Source: Chloroflexota bacterium (GTDB taxonomy: Bacteria > Chloroflexota > Dehalococcoidia > UBA2979). From it: DNA of 64,000 nt. Below are positions 52,741-61,172 of this stretch, piece after piece. Made by a program: the position numbers and the translations under genes. Position 1 is the first letter of the stretch, and each line of letters opens with the position of its first letter. Where the stretch lies: assembly GCA_003228125.1 (NCBI GenBank), contig QGNP01000001.1, positions 1 through 64,000 of the forward strand, read 5' to 3'. The notes under the pieces are model-generated. The model did no database searches. It worked only from the letters and a program-made list of their open reading frames with translations, and was not told where the DNA came from.

Positions 52741-54012
52741 TTATTCAGTATATTTATTACTAATAACTTGTTTTTTATAAAAAATATCAATTTCTTTTTT
52801 TGAAAAACCTAAATTATCTAAAATAATTTCATTGTGTTCTCCTAATAAACCAGCTGGCAAATACCATTTTTGTGCATCAGGCTTTATGTCCCATAAAAAA
52901 CCAGACATTAATCTGTTGCCTAAAAAATCATGATCTATGCTTTGCCACCAATTTCTAAATGTCAATTGTTCATTTGTTAATAAATTTGGGGCATTAACAA
53001 CTGGAGCTGCTATAACATTGCTACTTGTTAAAATATTAATAATTTCTGTACGATCTCTTTTTACAACTTCTTGCTGTATCCAAGCATGTATTTTTTCTCT
53101 ATTTTTAATTCTTCCTTGGATAGTAGACCAGTCATGTTTTATGTTTGCAAATTCATCTTTTAGAAATACATGACAAAGATTTGCCCACTGTTCATCATTT
53201 TCTGCAGCTATTACAATCCATTCTTGATTATTGTTAGTAACAAAGCATCCATGAGGAACAAAGCTTTCATCTAAATTTCCTAACTGCTTTGGAAGTCTTT
53301 TGTTCCATTTCCATTCAGAAAGCATGCCAGGCAAATACCAGGCGAATGATTCTAAGTGAGAAAGGTCAATGAAAGAACCAATACCAGTCTGTTGTTTTCT
53401 GTACATTGATGAAATGGTTGCAAACATTACTTCTAAAGGAGCACTAGCATCCGTTTGAATTGTTCCTAATATATCTTCTGTAGATTTTTGTGAATTTCCT
53501 CTAGTAATAACATGGCCTGATGAAGCTTCTACCAAAGATCCAAGAGCTGTATACCCGGAATATGGCCCATCTACTCCCCATGCAGGCATAGAAAGCATAC
53601 TTATTTTATTATTAATATTATGTATTTTTTCCCAATCAAATCCTAATTTTTCAATTACTCCTGCTGCATAACCATCAATAATAATATCAGCCCATTGTAT
53701 TAACCTGGTGAATATTTCTTTACCTTCTTTTTTATTTAGATTGAGAGATAGAAATAGTTTATTTCTGTTTCCTTGAGTTTGCGGAGCTGTTTTTTCATAT
53801 GCTGGGCCAGGTCCGTCTGCTACTCTTGCATCAATAGAAATTGGCCTAGTCAGTGACCTACGTGGATAGGATTCTACTTTTATCACTTCGGCACCCATGT
53901 CTGCCATTAATGATATGCCAAATGGAGCAGCAAAAACTTCTGCAAAATCGATGATTTTGATATCTTGCAGTGCCAAGCAACGATTTTCGTTTGATACAAC
54001 GTTATTCAGCAT
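52741..54012 (-). CDS. CaiB/BaiF CoA-transferase family protein
   Basis: DIKIIDFAEVFAAPFGISLMADMGAEVIKVESYPRRSLTRP; IQTDASAPLEVMFATISSM at the catalytic-Asp region. Confidence 0.92.
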   Translation of the reverse strand: MLNNVVSNENRCLALQDIKIIDFAEVFAAPFGISLMADMGAEVIKVESYPRRSLTRPISIDARVADGPGPAYEKTAPQTQGNRNKLFLSLNLNKKEGKEIFTRLIQWADIIIDGYAAGVIEKLGFDWEKIHNINNKISMLSMPAWGVDGPYSGYTALGSLVEASSGHVITRGNSQKSTEDILGTIQTDASAPLEVMFATISSMYRKQQTGIGSFIDLSHLESFAWYLPGMLSEWKWNKRLPKQLGNLDESFVPHGCFVTNNNQEWIVIAAENDEQWANLCHVFLKDEFANIKHDWSTIQGRIKNREKIHAWIQQEVVKRDRTEIINILTSSNVIAAPVVNAPNLLTNEQLTFRNWWQSIDHDFLGNRLMSGFLWDIKPDAQKWYLPAGLLGEHNEIILDNLGFSKKEIDIFYKKQVISNKYTE

Positions 54013-55261
54013 AAGAATTTCCGATGACAGATTTATTATAAAGTTTTACTATTTCTTTTTTTGCATAACCTAACTCTTGCAATATTTCTTCGTTATGCTC
54101 TCCGACTTGTTCGGTTCTATATTCATAATTTGGTGAATCAGGTTGCATGTTCCATAGAAAACCTGGCATAAGTCGTTCGCCTAAATAAGGCAAATTGATT
54201 GCTTTGAACCAATTTCTATGATGCATTTGTAAATTATTAAACATGCCAGGTGCATCTACGATAGGACTGGCAATAGCACCGCATTGTTGAATAAGGCTAA
54301 TTATTTGTTCGCTATCTTGTTTTAAGCAAATTTTTTTTATTTCATTATCAATTTTATTTCTATGTTTTAGTCTGCCTGTTATTGTGCTCCATTTATGTTC
54401 TATTGAACTCCACTCTGATTTATCTAATGCGAGGCATAATTTTTGCCACTGTTCATCATTTTCTGCAGATATAACTATCCATTTATTATCCAATGTAGGG
54501 TAGATATTATGAGGAACAATATATTTATCAGAATTACCAAGTTGTTCCGTTTCTCTATTATTAAGTATCCATTCACCTAATGGACCAACTAAATGCCAAG
54601 CAAATGCTTCTGCTTGAGAAAGATCAATAAAAGATCCTTTGTTTGTTATCTTTCTTTTATTTAATGATATCAAGGATGCCAAAACTACTTGAATAGGCGC
54701 TGTGGCATCTGTAATAAAATTGCCTGGTATATGAATGATATCTTTAGAATTGTTACCTCTAGTTAATGCATGGCCTACGCTTGCTTCTATTCCGGAACCT
54801 AATGCAACATACCCTGCATATGGTCCATGTACTCCCCAAGCAGGCATAGATATGACATTGATTTTATTATTAATATTATGTATTTTTTCCCAACCAAAAC
54901 CTAATTTTTCAATTACTCCTGCAGCAAATCCTTCAATTAAAATGTCAGAATTCTCTATTAACTTTCTTAGAATGATATTACCTTCTTCATGTTTAACATT
55001 TAATGCGATGTTTCTTTTATTTCTATTTCCTTGTATTTGAGAAGTAGTTCGTTCATATGCTGGACCAGGTCCATCTGCTACTCTTGCATCTTCAATTATT
55101 GGCCTTGTTAACGACCTTCTTGGAAAAGATTCAATTTTAATTACTTCTGCACCAAGATCTCCGAGCATGGATGCTCCGAATGGACCTGCCCAAACTTCAG
55201 CAAAATCCAGCACTCTAATTCCTTTAAGAGATTGCGATTTATTAAACTGTTGTCTAACCAT
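54002..55261 (-). CDS. CaiB/BaiF CoA-transferase family protein, close paralogue of the preceding gene
   Basis: GIRVLDFAEVWAGPFGASMLGDLGAEVIKIESFPRRSLTRP; FITDATAPIQVVLASLISL. Confidence 0.92.
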   Translation of the reverse strand: MVRQQFNKSQSLKGIRVLDFAEVWAGPFGASMLGDLGAEVIKIESFPRRSLTRPIIEDARVADGPGPAYERTTSQIQGNRNKRNIALNVKHEEGNIILRKLIENSDILIEGFAAGVIEKLGFGWEKIHNINNKINVISMPAWGVHGPYAGYVALGSGIEASVGHALTRGNNSKDIIHIPGNFITDATAPIQVVLASLISLNKRKITNKGSFIDLSQAEAFAWHLVGPLGEWILNNRETEQLGNSDKYIVPHNIYPTLDNKWIVISAENDEQWQKLCLALDKSEWSSIEHKWSTITGRLKHRNKIDNEIKKICLKQDSEQIISLIQQCGAIASPIVDAPGMFNNLQMHHRNWFKAINLPYLGERLMPGFLWNMQPDSPNYEYRTEQVGEHNEEILQELGYAKKEIVKLYNKSVIGNSYAE

Positions 55262-55263
55262 TA

Positions 55264-56445
55264 TTATCTAATTGCTCCAATCTTAAATAAGGCAATTTGT
55301 TCTTCTTTTGAATATTTTAATTTTGTTAATATTTCTATAGTGCTTGAACCAAAATCTGGAGGAGGCAGTGCTTCCCAAGAGTCCTCTATTTTGAATGGTG
55401 GTCCATGAATAATTGTTTTGCCAATTTGACTGTGTTCAATTTCTACAAAAGAATTACGAGCAATTGCTTGTTCGTCATCGGTGACTTCTGACATATTCAC
55501 AACTGGAGCTACCATAACTCTGTATTGTTGCATTTCTTTAAATACTTCTTTTTTTGTTCTATTGGAAAGCCATGGATCAAGGTATTCCATAAAATCTTCG
55601 AAATGTTTTGATTTTTCTATTGGATCATTGAATCTTGAATCATTGATTAATTCTGGATGTCCTATAGCTTCGCATAATCTTGCGAATTGAGGTCCAAGCG
55701 TTGCAGCAAACATCACATATCCATCCTTGCACTTGTAGTTGCCTATAGGATAATTATCTGTATTTCTTCCCATACCACTTTTTCGTTGAGTTCCTAGTAG
55801 TACCCAATCAACGTAACCTGTATCAACATTTCCTGCTAATGCTTCTACGCTTGATAAGTCTACGTCTCTTCTAATACCATCATGTTCGTGACCCCAAACT
55901 ATTGAAAGTCCAACAGCCGCTGCCGTGGCTCCAATCTGAATAGTGGCAACATGCGGACCATATCTAAGTGGTTCAGATCCATCATGACCGTGTCTTTCCA
56001 TTCTTGTGGTCCAAGCAAATATGGACATTTCATTTTCAATTCTGTTACTGTATGGTCCCTCAAGTCCATGAGGACTTATTGCAACTGTACTTGGTCCTGA
56101 TTCTTTGTTAAGTAAGTTAAGAATTTTTTTTGATTCTGTGACTGGTAAATCAATAATAACTAACTGGGCATCATTGCAAATTCTAGTAATTATTTCTTTA
56201 CCAGAATTTGATAAGTGATCAATTACTATTGATTTTTTTCCAGTATCTAATGCAATATGAAATGCTCCAGTTTCTAAATTTGGAATATCTTGAAAAAATG
56301 GAGGAGTTCTTCGAATTTCACCTCCATTTAATAATTCAATTTTTATAACTTCTGCTCCAAAATCTGTGAATTGTTTAGACGCAGAAGCTGCCGCAATAGT
56401 GCTACCTATTTCAATAATTTTTATACCATTTAGAGGTTTTTGCAT
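55264..56445 (-). CDS. CaiB/BaiF CoA-transferase family protein, apparently lacking the catalytic Asp
   Basis: GIKIIEIGSTIAAASASKQFTDFGAEVIKIELLNGGEIRR; ATIQIGATAAAVGLSIVW at the catalytic-Asp region. Confidence 0.88.
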   Translation of the reverse strand: MQKPLNGIKIIEIGSTIAAASASKQFTDFGAEVIKIELLNGGEIRRTPPFFQDIPNLETGAFHIALDTGKKSIVIDHLSNSGKEIITRICNDAQLVIIDLPVTESKKILNLLNKESGPSTVAISPHGLEGPYSNRIENEMSIFAWTTRMERHGHDGSEPLRYGPHVATIQIGATAAAVGLSIVWGHEHDGIRRDVDLSSVEALAGNVDTGYVDWVLLGTQRKSGMGRNTDNYPIGNYKCKDGYVMFAATLGPQFARLCEAIGHPELINDSRFNDPIEKSKHFEDFMEYLDPWLSNRTKKEVFKEMQQYRVMVAPVVNMSEVTDDEQAIARNSFVEIEHSQIGKTIIHGPPFKIEDSWEALPPPDFGSSTIEILTKLKYSKEEQIALFKIGAIR

Positions 56446-56519: not shown

Positions 56520-57809
56520 TTAGTCAGGCCTATTAGCTACATGATTGCCAGGTGTTATTTTTGTAGAATTAGAAGATACTTTTTTCATAAATACAATCAT
56601 GATAGATGCAAAAAATGAGAGCATGCTAAAAACTATCCATATCCCTGTGTAGTTTCCTACTGAATCGTAATATGCTGACACTAATAAAGGGCTTGTTGAT
56701 GAAAGAATAATCATAAATGGCATTACTGCTCCACGTATGCTACCAATATGCTTTCTGCCAAATAATAAAGGCCAAACAATTTCTTGAAGAGGCACAACTC
56801 CAGAGATACTAATCCCTAAAGTTAAATAACCAATGATTACTAAATTATAGTTTAATGATTGAGTTCCAATTAATACTATTCCAATTCCAATGGGACAAGC
56901 AATGAATGCAAAACAAGAAAGATATCTAATATCGATTTTTTCAGCAATAATACCCCAAATGGGTCTAGTTAATAAACCTGGAAAAGCAAATAAGGACAAC
57001 ATTGCAGCTGCTCTTGTCCTTTCAAAGCCAGCATCAGTTAAAAAAGGAATTGTATGTGCTCCAACTGCTGGAAAAGTTAAACTTGCCAGAGAATATGCAA
57101 CTAACACTATCCAAAAATTTGAGGTTCTCATTGCTTGTTTTCTTGTGATTGATTTTTCTTCAATATTTTGAACATTATTTTTATCATCAGTAGTATTTTT
57201 TTGAATTCCATCTGGGAGCATGCCATAATCTTCCGGCTCCCTCCTCATAGTTAGGGCAGCTGGGTATAACAAACATGCTGTCAACAATGCCATTATTTGC
57301 CAGCCTGCCCGCCATCCAAATTCGTCTACAAAAGGAGTTAGTAAAGAGGGAGTCATAATTCCTGTAATTGATAATCCTACAAGGGATATCCCGATGGCTC
57401 TTCCTCGATATCTTACAAACCATTTTGCTATAGCTGCTTGTACAACTAAGAACGTAGCAAGCGCAACTCCAATAGATAGGAACACTCCTCTAATTAAGTA
57501 CCATTGCCATAAATTTTCAATTTCTGCGAGCAACAATAAGCATATAATCATTATTGTTGTTCCAATAAACATCAGTTTTCTGCCTCCATGACGATCGAGA
57601 TATCCACCAATAAAAACTGCTATTATCGCTGTTACGATGTACGAAACTGTTATTGAGCCTATAAACTCTGTTCTTGTCCAATTAAATTCTTCGCTCATAG
57701 GTATAAAAAAAACACCAGTAGCATAACCTTGGACGGAACCACCGATAAACATTGTTGCCATGGCTGCAAGTACGATGTACCAGCCAAAAAAAATATTAAT
57801 TTTTTTCAT
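56520..57809 (-). CDS. MFS transporter (monocarboxylate/oxalate-formate-type)
   Basis: 12-TM pattern; FGWYIVLAAMATMFIGGSVQGYATGVFFIPMSEEFNWTR, GGYLDRHGGRKLMFIGT. Confidence 0.88.
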   Translation of the reverse strand: MKKINIFFGWYIVLAAMATMFIGGSVQGYATGVFFIPMSEEFNWTRTEFIGSITVSYIVTAIIAVFIGGYLDRHGGRKLMFIGTTIMIICLLLLAEIENLWQWYLIRGVFLSIGVALATFLVVQAAIAKWFVRYRGRAIGISLVGLSITGIMTPSLLTPFVDEFGWRAGWQIMALLTACLLYPAALTMRREPEDYGMLPDGIQKNTTDDKNNVQNIEEKSITRKQAMRTSNFWIVLVAYSLASLTFPAVGAHTIPFLTDAGFERTRAAAMLSLFAFPGLLTRPIWGIIAEKIDIRYLSCFAFIACPIGIGIVLIGTQSLNYNLVIIGYLTLGISISGVVPLQEIVWPLLFGRKHIGSIRGAVMPFMIILSSTSPLLVSAYYDSVGNYTGIWIVFSMLSFFASIMIVFMKKVSSNSTKITPGNHVANRPD

Positions 57810-57896: not shown

Positions 57897-58505
57897 ATGA
57901 ATAACAATCAATCAGATAATGTAGAAGTATTTTTAGCAAAAGCCGTTGCAGATAAATTAATTAGTGCAGCTAATAATTTTCCAGAACCTGTAGCAGGAGT
58001 TCAGCTGTCTATTAATGGTAGAAAAGATGGAGCATTTGATCATAAATTATCATTGATTGATAAAGGCACTGAAAATCCATTGGATATTGTTCAAGAAATT
58101 AATGAAACACTTAATTTATATATTGAGATTAAAAATGCGGAATATTTACATGGACTAAAGATTGATTTTGATGAAACCAATAACAGTTCTAATGGTTTTA
58201 TTTTTAATAATCCTAACCCAATTTGGAAAGAGCCCATTGCAATAAAATTACAAAAATTTTTTGATGAGCAAGTTAATCCATCAATTGCTTCTCATGGAGG
58301 AATGATTAACTTGATTGACATAAAAGGTTCTTCTGCATATGTAGAAATGAGCGGTGGATGTCAAGGATGCGGAATGGCAAGTGTGACTCTGAAGCAAGGA
58401 GTGGAAGTTATGGTCCAAGAAGCAATACCTGAAATTACCGAACTTATTGACAGCACAGATCATTCTAGTGGCGAGAATCCTTATTTTGCTTCTGAAAAAA
58501 AATAA
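57897..58505 (+). CDS. NifU C-terminal-domain (Nfu-type) Fe-S protein with N-terminal extension
   Basis: KFFDEQVNPSIASHGGMINLIDIKGSSAYVEMSGGCQGCGMASVTLKQGVEVMVQEAIPEI (CxxC Nfu motif). Confidence 0.9.
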   Translation: MNNNQSDNVEVFLAKAVADKLISAANNFPEPVAGVQLSINGRKDGAFDHKLSLIDKGTENPLDIVQEINETLNLYIEIKNAEYLHGLKIDFDETNNSSNGFIFNNPNPIWKEPIAIKLQKFFDEQVNPSIASHGGMINLIDIKGSSAYVEMSGGCQGCGMASVTLKQGVEVMVQEAIPEITELIDSTDHSSGENPYFASEKK

Positions 58506-58509
58506 CGAA

Positions 58510-59952
58510 ATGATTAGTTCAAAATCACCATCTCAAATTTTAAACGTAGTACTTATTTCTTTATATGATCTTGGCCATCAGCCACTTTCAATTGCTTCAG
58601 CAGCTGCCTTGCTTAAAGAGTATAATTGCAATATAGAAATTATCGAATTATCTAATTTAAAAATAGCGAAAGAATCTATTAAGAATGCAGAATTAATTTT
58701 ACTTTCTGTTCCAATGCATACTGCCGCACGTATGGCAGTTAAACTGGTACCTGAATTGAGAAAAATTAATTCTGATGCACATATATCTATATTTGGACTT
58801 TATGCATTGCATTTGCAAGATGCTTTAGATGAAAGAATAATTGATTCTGCAATTTCTGGAGAGTTTGAATCATCTCTTAAAGTTTTAGTTGAAGAATTAC
58901 TCACTAATCAAAAAGAAGATGATCGGTCTATTAATAGTTGGATAAGTCCAAAAATAAGTTTTGAAAGACAAATTTTCTTAACTCCTTCTAGAGAAAATTT
59001 GCCACCATTAGAACAGTATGCAAAAATGTCGATTAACAATAGTGAAAAACTTACTGGCTATATTGAAACGAGTCATGGCTGTGCCCATTCTTGTCCTCAT
59101 TGTCCAGTTACGGCAGTTTATCAAGGAAAATTTAGAATAGTAGATAAGAAATCAATATTGAAAGATGTAGATAATTTGATAAAAATAGGAGCGGAACATT
59201 TTACTTTTGGTGATCCTGATTTTTTTAATGCTCCTAAGCATTCTCTTGATATAGCATCATCAATAAAGAAAAAATATCCTCATATAACTTTTGATGCAAC
59301 TATAAAAGTTGAACATATTTTGGAACATAAAGATTTAATTAAAAAATTAAAAGACATGGGATTTTTGTTTATTATATCTGCATTTGAATCAACAAATAAT
59401 CATGTATTAAATAAGCTTGAAAAAGGACATTTATTTAATGACATGCAACTTGCTATTGATATTTGCAAGAGCAGTAATTTGATTATTAAGCCAACATGGA
59501 TTCCATTTACGCCATGGATGCAATTTTCTGATTATCCTGTTCTGATTAATTTTATAATTAAGAATGATTTAATGAATTTAATTTCTCCAGTACAATATGG
59601 CATTAGACTTTTAATACCTAAGCTATCCACTTTAGTTTCTCAATTGAATGAAGATGGCATCAGCATAACTTATTCTAAAGAAAAATTGACATATGAGTGG
59701 GATCATTTAGATCCTAACGTTGATATTTTATTTGAAGAAATTACAAATTTAATTAATAAAGATATAAATACGGAAGAATTAAGCACTAATTTTTTTGATG
59801 ACATTTACAATTTAGTACAATCAAAGACAAACAATTCAATGCTGCCTTATCAAATTATTAATCATGAGACAGTTGGTTCTACAGAAGATTGGTATTGTTG
59901 TGCTGAACCAACAAATAGACAAATTTTATCTGTAGATTCTATTTTAAATTAG
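58510..59952 (+). CDS. Radical SAM protein with C-terminal CCAEP tail (CUAEP/CCAEP-tail type)
   Basis: Cluster motif GYIETSHGCAHSCPHCPV (CX3CX2C); tail WYCCAEPTNRQIL; ATG at 58510 just after the NifU stop preferred over tracked 58447. Confidence 0.85.
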   Translation: MISSKSPSQILNVVLISLYDLGHQPLSIASAAALLKEYNCNIEIIELSNLKIAKESIKNAELILLSVPMHTAARMAVKLVPELRKINSDAHISIFGLYALHLQDALDERIIDSAISGEFESSLKVLVEELLTNQKEDDRSINSWISPKISFERQIFLTPSRENLPPLEQYAKMSINNSEKLTGYIETSHGCAHSCPHCPVTAVYQGKFRIVDKKSILKDVDNLIKIGAEHFTFGDPDFFNAPKHSLDIASSIKKKYPHITFDATIKVEHILEHKDLIKKLKDMGFLFIISAFESTNNHVLNKLEKGHLFNDMQLAIDICKSSNLIIKPTWIPFTPWMQFSDYPVLINFIIKNDLMNLISPVQYGIRLLIPKLSTLVSQLNEDGISITYSKEKLTYEWDHLDPNVDILFEEITNLINKDINTEELSTNFFDDIYNLVQSKTNNSMLPYQIINHETVGSTEDWYCCAEPTNRQILSVDSILN

Positions 59953-61172
59953 GATAGCGTTATTTTAATTTGAGCATTAGCTTTTTGCAATGATTTTATT
60001 ATGCCTTTTTTAGATTTTCCCTCCGCAAAAATAAAACCAATATATATATTTGCTTTAGGAAGTTTTTGTATTTTTTGATTTTTGTGTACTGTGATTTGAA
60101 TATCTGTTATATTTTTTATTTTTTTTGCTTCATCTATCCCAGATATTGATTCAATAGTTCCTTCGTGAATAGTTGGTATCATCATTACTGCAGTCAATGT
60201 TTGTTTATTTTTAGCACTAAATTTATTTCCTAATGCATTATTAAGTATTATTTCTTCAAGAGTAATGTTGTTTTCAAATTGTATAATCCTTGCACATAAG
60301 CCACCAATTGATCTTGCGCCGACATCTATTGGATAGATGCCTGTTTTATTAACTCTATATTCGATATGAACAGGGCCTTCATTAATTCCAATAGCTTCGA
60401 TTGTTTTCTGTGAAGTTTGAATTATTTGATTAATAAAATGACTAGTACAAAGCGGCATTGATAAATATATTGTTTCTTCAAAATAAGGACCTGTTAATGG
60501 TTTTGGTTTTTGAAATACTGCGAGCAACTTAAACCTTTTTTGTTCAACAATTCCTTCTACTGCATATTCTTTTCCTGGCATGTAATTTTGAATAAGAATG
60601 TTTTCTTTTTCAAAGGCGTTATTGCATTCATTCTTGAGTTCATTTTGTAATAAATTAAATAAAAAATTTTTGTTTTTTATGAATTCAATTTTATTATTAA
60701 CCCTTATAACTCCTCTACTTGATGACAAGCCAAGAGGTTTAATAACTGATGGGTATTTAATCTTATTTTTTTGATTTTTATTATTATTTATTAGAAAAAA
60801 ATTAGAATCTATTAAATTATTTCTAAATAAAAGGATATTTAATATATATTTATTTTTTGTCGCGCTAACAGATTCAAATGAACTGTGATTTATGTTTAAT
60901 TTTTTTGAAGCTAAGCTTGCTAACAATACTCCTTGATCGTCTACGGCTAAAATTTTGTCAATTTTTTTTTGTATTGAAAAATTATATATTTTTGTAGTTG
61001 ATAATTTTAGTTTATGAAAATCAAGCATGAGATAACGATCTGGTAACTTTTGACTAAGTGCCTGCGTTTGATCAGTACCTATAACTATATTAATTTTTAT
61101 TTTTAGAGCAGCAACAATAAAGTCATTTGCCCTATAAGTGTTACCTGGTAATAGCAGAAGTATTCTTTTCAT
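59949..61172 (-). CDS. ATP-grasp domain protein
   Basis: YPSVIKPLGLSSSRGVIRVNN, LIQNYMPGKEYAVEGIV, GPVHIEYRVNKTGIYPIDVGARSIGGLCARI. Confidence 0.85.
   Translation of the reverse strand: MKRILLLLPGNTYRANDFIVAALKIKINIVIGTDQTQALSQKLPDRYLMLDFHKLKLSTTKIYNFSIQKKIDKILAVDDQGVLLASLASKKLNINHSSFESVSATKNKYILNILLFRNNLIDSNFFLINNNKNQKNKIKYPSVIKPLGLSSSRGVIRVNNKIEFIKNKNFLFNLLQNELKNECNNAFEKENILIQNYMPGKEYAVEGIVEQKRFKLLAVFQKPKPLTGPYFEETIYLSMPLCTSHFINQIIQTSQKTIEAIGINEGPVHIEYRVNKTGIYPIDVGARSIGGLCARIIQFENNITLEEIILNNALGNKFSAKNKQTLTAVMMIPTIHEGTIESISGIDEAKKIKNITDIQITVHKNQKIQKLPKANIYIGFIFAEGKSKKGIIKSLQKANAQIKITLS

Follow-up and report, generated by a model that had tools for sequence, protein, structure and literature searches.

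A CCAEP-tailed radical SAM enzyme of the Chloroflexota and its probable partners, an ATP-grasp ligase and a lysine-tailed iron-sulfur carrier

Radical SAM enzymes of the CUAEP/CCAEP family are widespread and mostly contain selenocysteine, with a function so far unassigned to the family. A member encoded next to an iron-sulfur carrier in a Chloroflexota bacterium (assembly 1.1 Mb, 84% complete) raises the question of what such an enzyme acts upon, and with which partners. The stretch of DNA analysed here (the window; positions 1 to 64,000 of contig QGNP01000001.1) contains the following features at this locus:

56520-57809, minus strand: MFS transporter gene, divergent neighbour of the locus
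57897-58505, plus strand: NfuA-type Fe-S carrier gene (202 aa; degenerate A-type N-terminal domain, then NifU domain at aa 120-182)
58488-58502, plus strand: Lys tail ASEKK (after NPYF) of the NfuA carrier, proposed modification or docking site
58510-59952, plus strand: CUAEP/CCAEP-tail radical SAM gene, Cys form (480 aa; NF040546, E 3e-147)
59080-59103, plus strand: radical SAM [4Fe-4S] motif CX3CX2C (Cys191/195/198)
59896-59910, plus strand: C-C-A-E-P tail of the radical SAM protein (C-U-A-E-P in most homologues)
59949-61172, minus strand: ATP-grasp ligase gene (407 aa), convergent with the radical SAM gene

As the first-pass annotation of this DNA had read, 4 bp (58506-58509) separate the carrier gene from the radical SAM gene, which starts at an ATG (58510). 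The stop codons of the radical SAM and ATP-grasp genes overlap. A search for a small precursor peptide or missed short ORF, which the annotation had proposed, came up empty: the intergenic gaps of the locus are too small for a separate short precursor gene, and only spurious ORFs turn up in the window. The candidate for a ribosomal substrate, if there is any, is the C-terminus of the carrier. A graspetide or classic RiPP cluster was rejected because no precursor gene lies beside the ligase and the best match of the ligase is not of the RimK-like type. Homologues of the MFS transporter occur near CUAEP loci in a few genomes, all of the same family, and the gene is not conserved elsewhere; it is possibly an accessory in close relatives only. 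Ahead of it, upstream of the locus, lie three CoA-transferase-like genes in a row (52741-56445).

Family placement of the radical SAM enzyme

By its tail, its position in the tree and its full-length match, the enzyme belongs to the CUAEP/CCAEP family, as the first-pass annotation had suggested, with a score just under the cut-off: NF040546 (NCBIfam) matches at 490.9 bits, 9 bits short of 500, and a same-genus homologue scores 475 bits. The next-best NCBIfam model is ArsL NF040542 (310 bits; cut-off 450). No family of known function claims the protein, and the earlier description of its reaction as uncharacterised stands. In the tree, CUAEP sequences split from ArsL at 100/100, and the window protein lies inside a same-family clade (100/90) on a long branch in common with one same-genus genome.

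The tail motif WYCCAEP occupies aa 461-467, the tail reading ...EDWYCCAEPTNRQILSVDSILN, and Cys463-Cys464 are encoded at 59896-59901 as TGT-TGT, in agreement with the Cys-Cys pair annotated. The tail is conserved in orthologues: of the 80 named homologues, 76 have a readable C-[C/U]-A-E-P motif, with Sec (TGA) in 56 and Cys in 20. When a homologue carries Sec, it takes the second position of the pair (C-U-A-E-P), not the first position that had been supposed. In a 61-sequence homologue alignment, CX3CX2C is invariant (61/61, and also in 4/4 ArsL-family proteins), Cys/Sec463-464 are found in all sequences, and these five positions are the only conserved Cys/Sec; an auxiliary cluster is not evident. 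In the Cys-form enzyme of Thermogemmatispora (L031-L036, L123-L125), a C-terminal extension past CCAEP carries additional Cys-Cys pairs, e.g. ...SCCGPARQEQSAAAASSGCCSVGT.

Comparison of Sec and Cys lineages, another suggestion of the first-pass annotation, reveals both forms interchanging: parsimony on a quick tree needs 10 changes or more, and well-supported branches force 6 of these. Folding downstream of the Sec/Cys codon is the stronger at Sec loci, with a mean z of -1.36 versus -0.05 at Cys loci. The window gene has no in-frame TGA at the Sec position and hence is not a selenoprotein gene. Loss of the Sec machinery was rejected as the origin of its Cys form, since the genome encodes SelA (522 bits) and SelB (302 bits). 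With SelB at G000:C9:22425-24260 and SelA at G000:C10:30595-31920, this genome may make other selenoproteins.

A phylum sample of 400 genomes, including Ktedonobacteria and Thermomicrobia, comprised 98 CUAEP-positive and 302 CUAEP-negative genomes; 92 of the 400 have a member above the cut-off. CUAEP homologues were found in records labelled Chloroflexota, Thermomicrobiota, Nitrospirota, Nitrospinota, Rokuibacteriota, Gemmatimonadota, Poribacteria, Planctomycetota, Acidobacteriota, Latescibacterota, SAR324, Elusimicrobiota, Ignavibacteriota and Bacteroidota. The family is mentioned neither by name nor by accession in a review of selenoproteins in prokaryotes that appeared in 2026.

The AlphaFold2 model of the radical SAM protein (pLDDT 90.3, pTM 0.90) is nearest in fold to OxsB, AprD4, MgmA and TsrM; its N-terminus is Rossmann-like of the B12 type, as in a possible cobalamin enzyme, but has no DxHxxG, and the Pfam B12-binding domain scores only 20.7 bits. 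MiaB and LIAS, also among the fold matches, bring to mind sulfur insertion of the lipoyl-synthase type, in which the sulfur would come from a sacrificial cluster, bound in part by the Cys-Cys/Cys-Sec tail and afterwards replaced by a dedicated carrier. A precedent is NfuA, which restores the auxiliary cluster of lipoyl synthase (PMC9585516). Such a reaction is highly improbable, considering that only two conserved Cys/Sec lie outside the radical SAM motif and that the carrier is kept in genomes without the radical SAM enzyme.

The ATP-grasp ligase and the iron-sulfur carrier

The ATP-grasp partner is closest to L-amino-acid ligases of the BL00235 type by domains (PF13535, ATP-grasp_4, 91.6 bits; PF18603, LAL_C2, 45.9 bits), by sequence (profile match to BL00235, 3VOT, E 9e-64) and by fold (model pLDDT 90.7; Foldseek to 3vot_A, E 3.5e-31, TM 0.82). 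It was found in 96 of the 98 CUAEP-positive versus 34 of the 302 CUAEP-negative genomes of the phylum (Fisher p 3e-60, no phylogenetic correction), the two positive genomes without it being incomplete assemblies (about 84%), and in 31 of 33 CUAEP-positive genomes from about a dozen other phyla. The 34 genomes that hold the ligase without the CUAEP enzyme imply that the radical step is optional, which counts against the reading proposed below.

The carrier of the window has a NifU domain (PF01106, 72.7 bits) with its CxxC inside GGCQGCGM, and matches TIGR03341 NfuA at 94 bits (equivalog cut-off 269) over aa 51-197 of 202, with the A-type plus NifU architecture; it is the single NifU-domain protein detected in the genome assembly (84% complete). 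When the flanks of CUAEP loci were searched by six-frame HMM searches, with some antisense ORF clusters in high-GC genomes set aside as spurious, a carrier gene on the same strand (Nfu, YggX or A-type) lay no more than 1 kb from the enzyme at 47 of 80 named loci and 33 of 61 relatives, and every YggX/Nfu match above 50 bits in the named-locus flanks was within this distance. Other recurrent neighbours are the ATP-grasp gene, a formyltransferase (with YggX) and DUF169. This recurrence, together with the genome co-occurrence, bears out the earlier suggestion that the Nfu and ATP-grasp neighbours are relevant. Many CUAEP loci (Thermomicrobium, Gemmatimonadota) have no adjacent partner, which again counts against the reading proposed below.

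Either enzyme may have the carrier as its neighbour: YggX lies beside the radical SAM gene in Ktedonobacteria, where the ligase is encoded elsewhere; several other genomes show the reverse, with YggX beside the ligase and a separate radical SAM gene; and NfuA or YggX adjoins the ligase in 17 of 18 sampled genomes with the ligase and without the CUAEP enzyme. NfuA and YggX are unrelated proteins, and are mutually exclusive among the ligase-positive genomes checked for both: 66 of 67 have one or the other, and none of the 67 has the two together. In several Ktedonobacteria (L117, L121, L192, G318, G324, G397, G409, G415), the YggX encoded beside the radical SAM gene consists of two YggX domains fused in tandem. 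At Nitrospirota loci L143, L146, L148, L149, L153 and L154, a DUF169 gene lies between the CCAEP enzyme and the ATP-grasp gene, and DUF169 may replace the Lys-tailed carrier there. On the evidence of linkage and co-occurrence, the radical SAM enzyme, the ATP-grasp protein and the tailed carrier very probably form a functional unit.

The first-pass annotation had explained the upstream Fe-S carrier by cluster delivery; the carrier is confirmed, and the explanation fares less well. In a fuller form of that explanation, the radical SAM enzyme of an aerobic host would simply depend on an Nfu, YggX or A-type carrier for insertion or repair of its oxygen-labile [4Fe-4S] cluster, with the tail as a docking peptide. 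Consistent with this are the three unrelated iron or Fe-S carriers that take the same place beside the radical SAM gene, the NifU-family gene adjoining lipA in Polaromonas, and the service of NfuA to lipoyl synthase (PMC9585516). The 17 of 18 ligase-only genomes indicate that the carrier there is not solely for the radical SAM enzyme, since it stands beside an ATP-grasp protein that needs no Fe-S cluster; moreover, the conserved Cys of the enzyme leave no evident auxiliary cluster to be served. Cluster supply alone is accordingly an unlikely explanation.

The proximity of ArsL to the CUAEP family brings up an arsinothricin-like pathway, in which the aminocarboxypropyl group of SAM would pass to a thiophilic element (arsenic or other) on the Cys-Cys/Cys-Sec tail, the ATP-grasp protein would couple the product into a peptide, and the carrier would supply Fe-S only. 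ArsL belongs to a sister family with 55 invariant residues in common, the tail Cys pair among them, and by itself yields hydroxyarsinothricin in E. coli (PMC8552651); an ATP-grasp gene is also present in three of the four RCCLKC/ArsL plasmid loci inspected; and predicted selenoproteins with metal-related roles repeatedly carry Cys-Sec pairs (PMC13188914). Against these points, arsenic genes were present in 4/4 ArsL loci inspected and are nearly absent beside CUAEP genes, where the flanks hold one ArsM-like gene at 1.9 kb and a few ArsB-like transporters, with no ArsR, aquaporin, ArsN or ArsC; for this reason an arsenic resistance or arsinothricin context was rejected. The ATP-grasps linked to ArsL are superfamily relatives only, and the pathway leaves the carrier tail and the ligase-only genomes unexplained, making it distinctly improbable. 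Specific orthology of the window ATP-grasp with those beside ArsL was likewise rejected, the plasmid matches being scattered ATP-grasps with superfamily-level similarity. The ArsL-family plasmid loci L197, L198 and L200, with RCCLKC tails, also carry a CobW-like GTP-binding gene and MFS or aquaporin genes in addition to ATP-grasp.

The lysine tail of the carrier

The window carrier ends NPYF-ASEKK, and the NCBIfam NfuA model stops at aa 197, five residues short of the end. A Lys extension is present in 58 of 59 linked Nfu fragments, where NP[YF][YFH] is followed by a short Lys-containing extension that is sometimes repeated, as in L104 (PYYQGSKGG/PYYQPAKGG/PHHQPAKGG/PQFTPAKG). The Nfu tails of L092, L095, L104 and L232, with two to four aromatic-x-x-x-Lys-Gly repeats, are reminiscent of multi-core substrate peptides. 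Linked YggX proteins have a Gly/Ala/Pro/Lys extension (49 fragments; median 31 residues past the FxF anchor, 3 Lys).

As controls, five close YggX proteins of ligase-lacking genomes stop shortly past EGWTPE, whereas the YggX proteins of same-family, ligase-positive genomes end PSKGGPRK; E. coli NfuA ends HSYY with no Lys extension, and the other Proteobacterial Nfu/NfuA proteins checked have none either (Acinetobacter NfuA ends YFK). Acidobacteriota NfuA has the Lys extension in 6 of 6 cases beside the ligase or radical SAM gene, compared with 1 of 24 unlinked (p 1.2e-5), and the lone unlinked case is cut by a contig end. Tailed NfuA is also found in CUAEP-positive genomes of many further phyla, often adjoining the ligase. 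Taken with the results above, the computational comparisons show that the three genes are linked, that NfuA and YggX exclude each other, and that the Lys tail depends on the partners.

There are exceptions. In four Nitrospira-type genomes with the enzyme, the ligase and DUF169, the only candidate carriers are distant YggX-like proteins, which lack the Lys tail; the linked A-type carriers of Nitrospinota are untailed, which counts against the reading proposed below, and in two of those genomes a tailed Nfu is encoded elsewhere; and a terminal Lys alone is not diagnostic, because four YggX proteins of Latescibacterota/Gemmatimonadota finish in a short RPPQ[ST]K, and that of E. coli in EDKK with no extension.

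The gain of the tail mainly where the ligase or radical SAM enzyme is present suggests that it is bound or modified by them. The tail tracks the ligase even where the radical SAM gene is not adjacent, a further point against cluster supply, and there is a reasonable probability that the ligase is the enzyme that binds or modifies it. Its role as a covalent substrate, and not a docking tag only, falls just short of an even chance.

Proposed mechanism and comparison with known systems

The best reading of these data is that the Lys tail serves as a substrate, scaffold or docking site common to the ligase and the radical SAM enzyme, with the chemistry inferred. As an account of the tail data, a docking tag is nearly the equal of a substrate; known L-amino-acid ligases act on free amino acids, which counts against the tail as substrate. 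If the tail is a substrate, the ATP-grasp protein would most likely activate the carboxylate of an amino acid and join it to a tail Lys by an isopeptide bond; the radical SAM enzyme would modify the carrier tail or the tethered residue, its Cys-Cys/Cys-Sec tail probably lying near the reaction; and the carrier would either stay modified for good or be the base on which a small product is assembled before its release. The order of steps, the attached group and the part played by the Cys/Sec pair are conjectural. The residues in common with ArsL hint that the radical SAM enzyme might perform ArsL-like aminocarboxypropyl chemistry, a doubtful but possible assignment.

As an explanation of the whole, we give an even chance to a three-part unit in which both enzymes have the tailed carrier as their partner and ligation precedes radical SAM modification. 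The fuller reading, a system of protein modification or carrier-based biosynthesis in about a dozen phyla, in which the ligase charges the Lys tail of NfuA, or of YggX as its interchangeable counterpart, with an amino acid that a (seleno)radical SAM enzyme then modifies, is offered tentatively. We found no account of a radical SAM/ligase/tailed-carrier system in the literature reached, an earlier mention being possible in the 2023 and 2025 selenoprotein papers of Haft and colleagues. Linkage to a specific ligase and to a carrier whose tail depends on both enzymes places what had been an orphan enzyme within a system and names a candidate for its substrate; should the tail be modified, NfuA and YggX would have a further function, that of modified or scaffold proteins.

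LysW/LysX, PEARL peptides, EF-P with EpmA/EpmB, and diphthamide have in common a ligase that uses ATP and, alone or together with a radical SAM enzyme, works on a single residue or on the C-terminus of a carrier protein. These systems are analogies only, having no carrier or ligase homologous to those described here. The NfuA-lipoyl synthase pair is alike in that an NfuA-type carrier serves a radical SAM enzyme; it differs in that the carrier here is Lys-tailed and follows the ATP-grasp gene even without the radical SAM enzyme. BL00235 (3VOT), RizA and BacD resemble the ATP-grasp partner in fold and sequence, but they make free dipeptides, whereas the gene here is tied to a carrier protein. 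ArsL (NF040542) resembles the window enzyme in about 33% identity, the common invariant residues, a Cys pair near the C-terminus and, at some loci, a nearby ATP-grasp gene, but has an RCCLKC tail, a separate clade and an ars operon, unlike the window enzyme with its CCAEP tail, sub-threshold ArsL score (310/450 bits) and no ars operon. The NF040546 family is the closest: the window enzyme differs from it in its slightly low score, long branch and Cys form despite SelA and SelB, and is like it in full-length match, C-[C/U]-A-E-P tail and nesting among same-family genomes.
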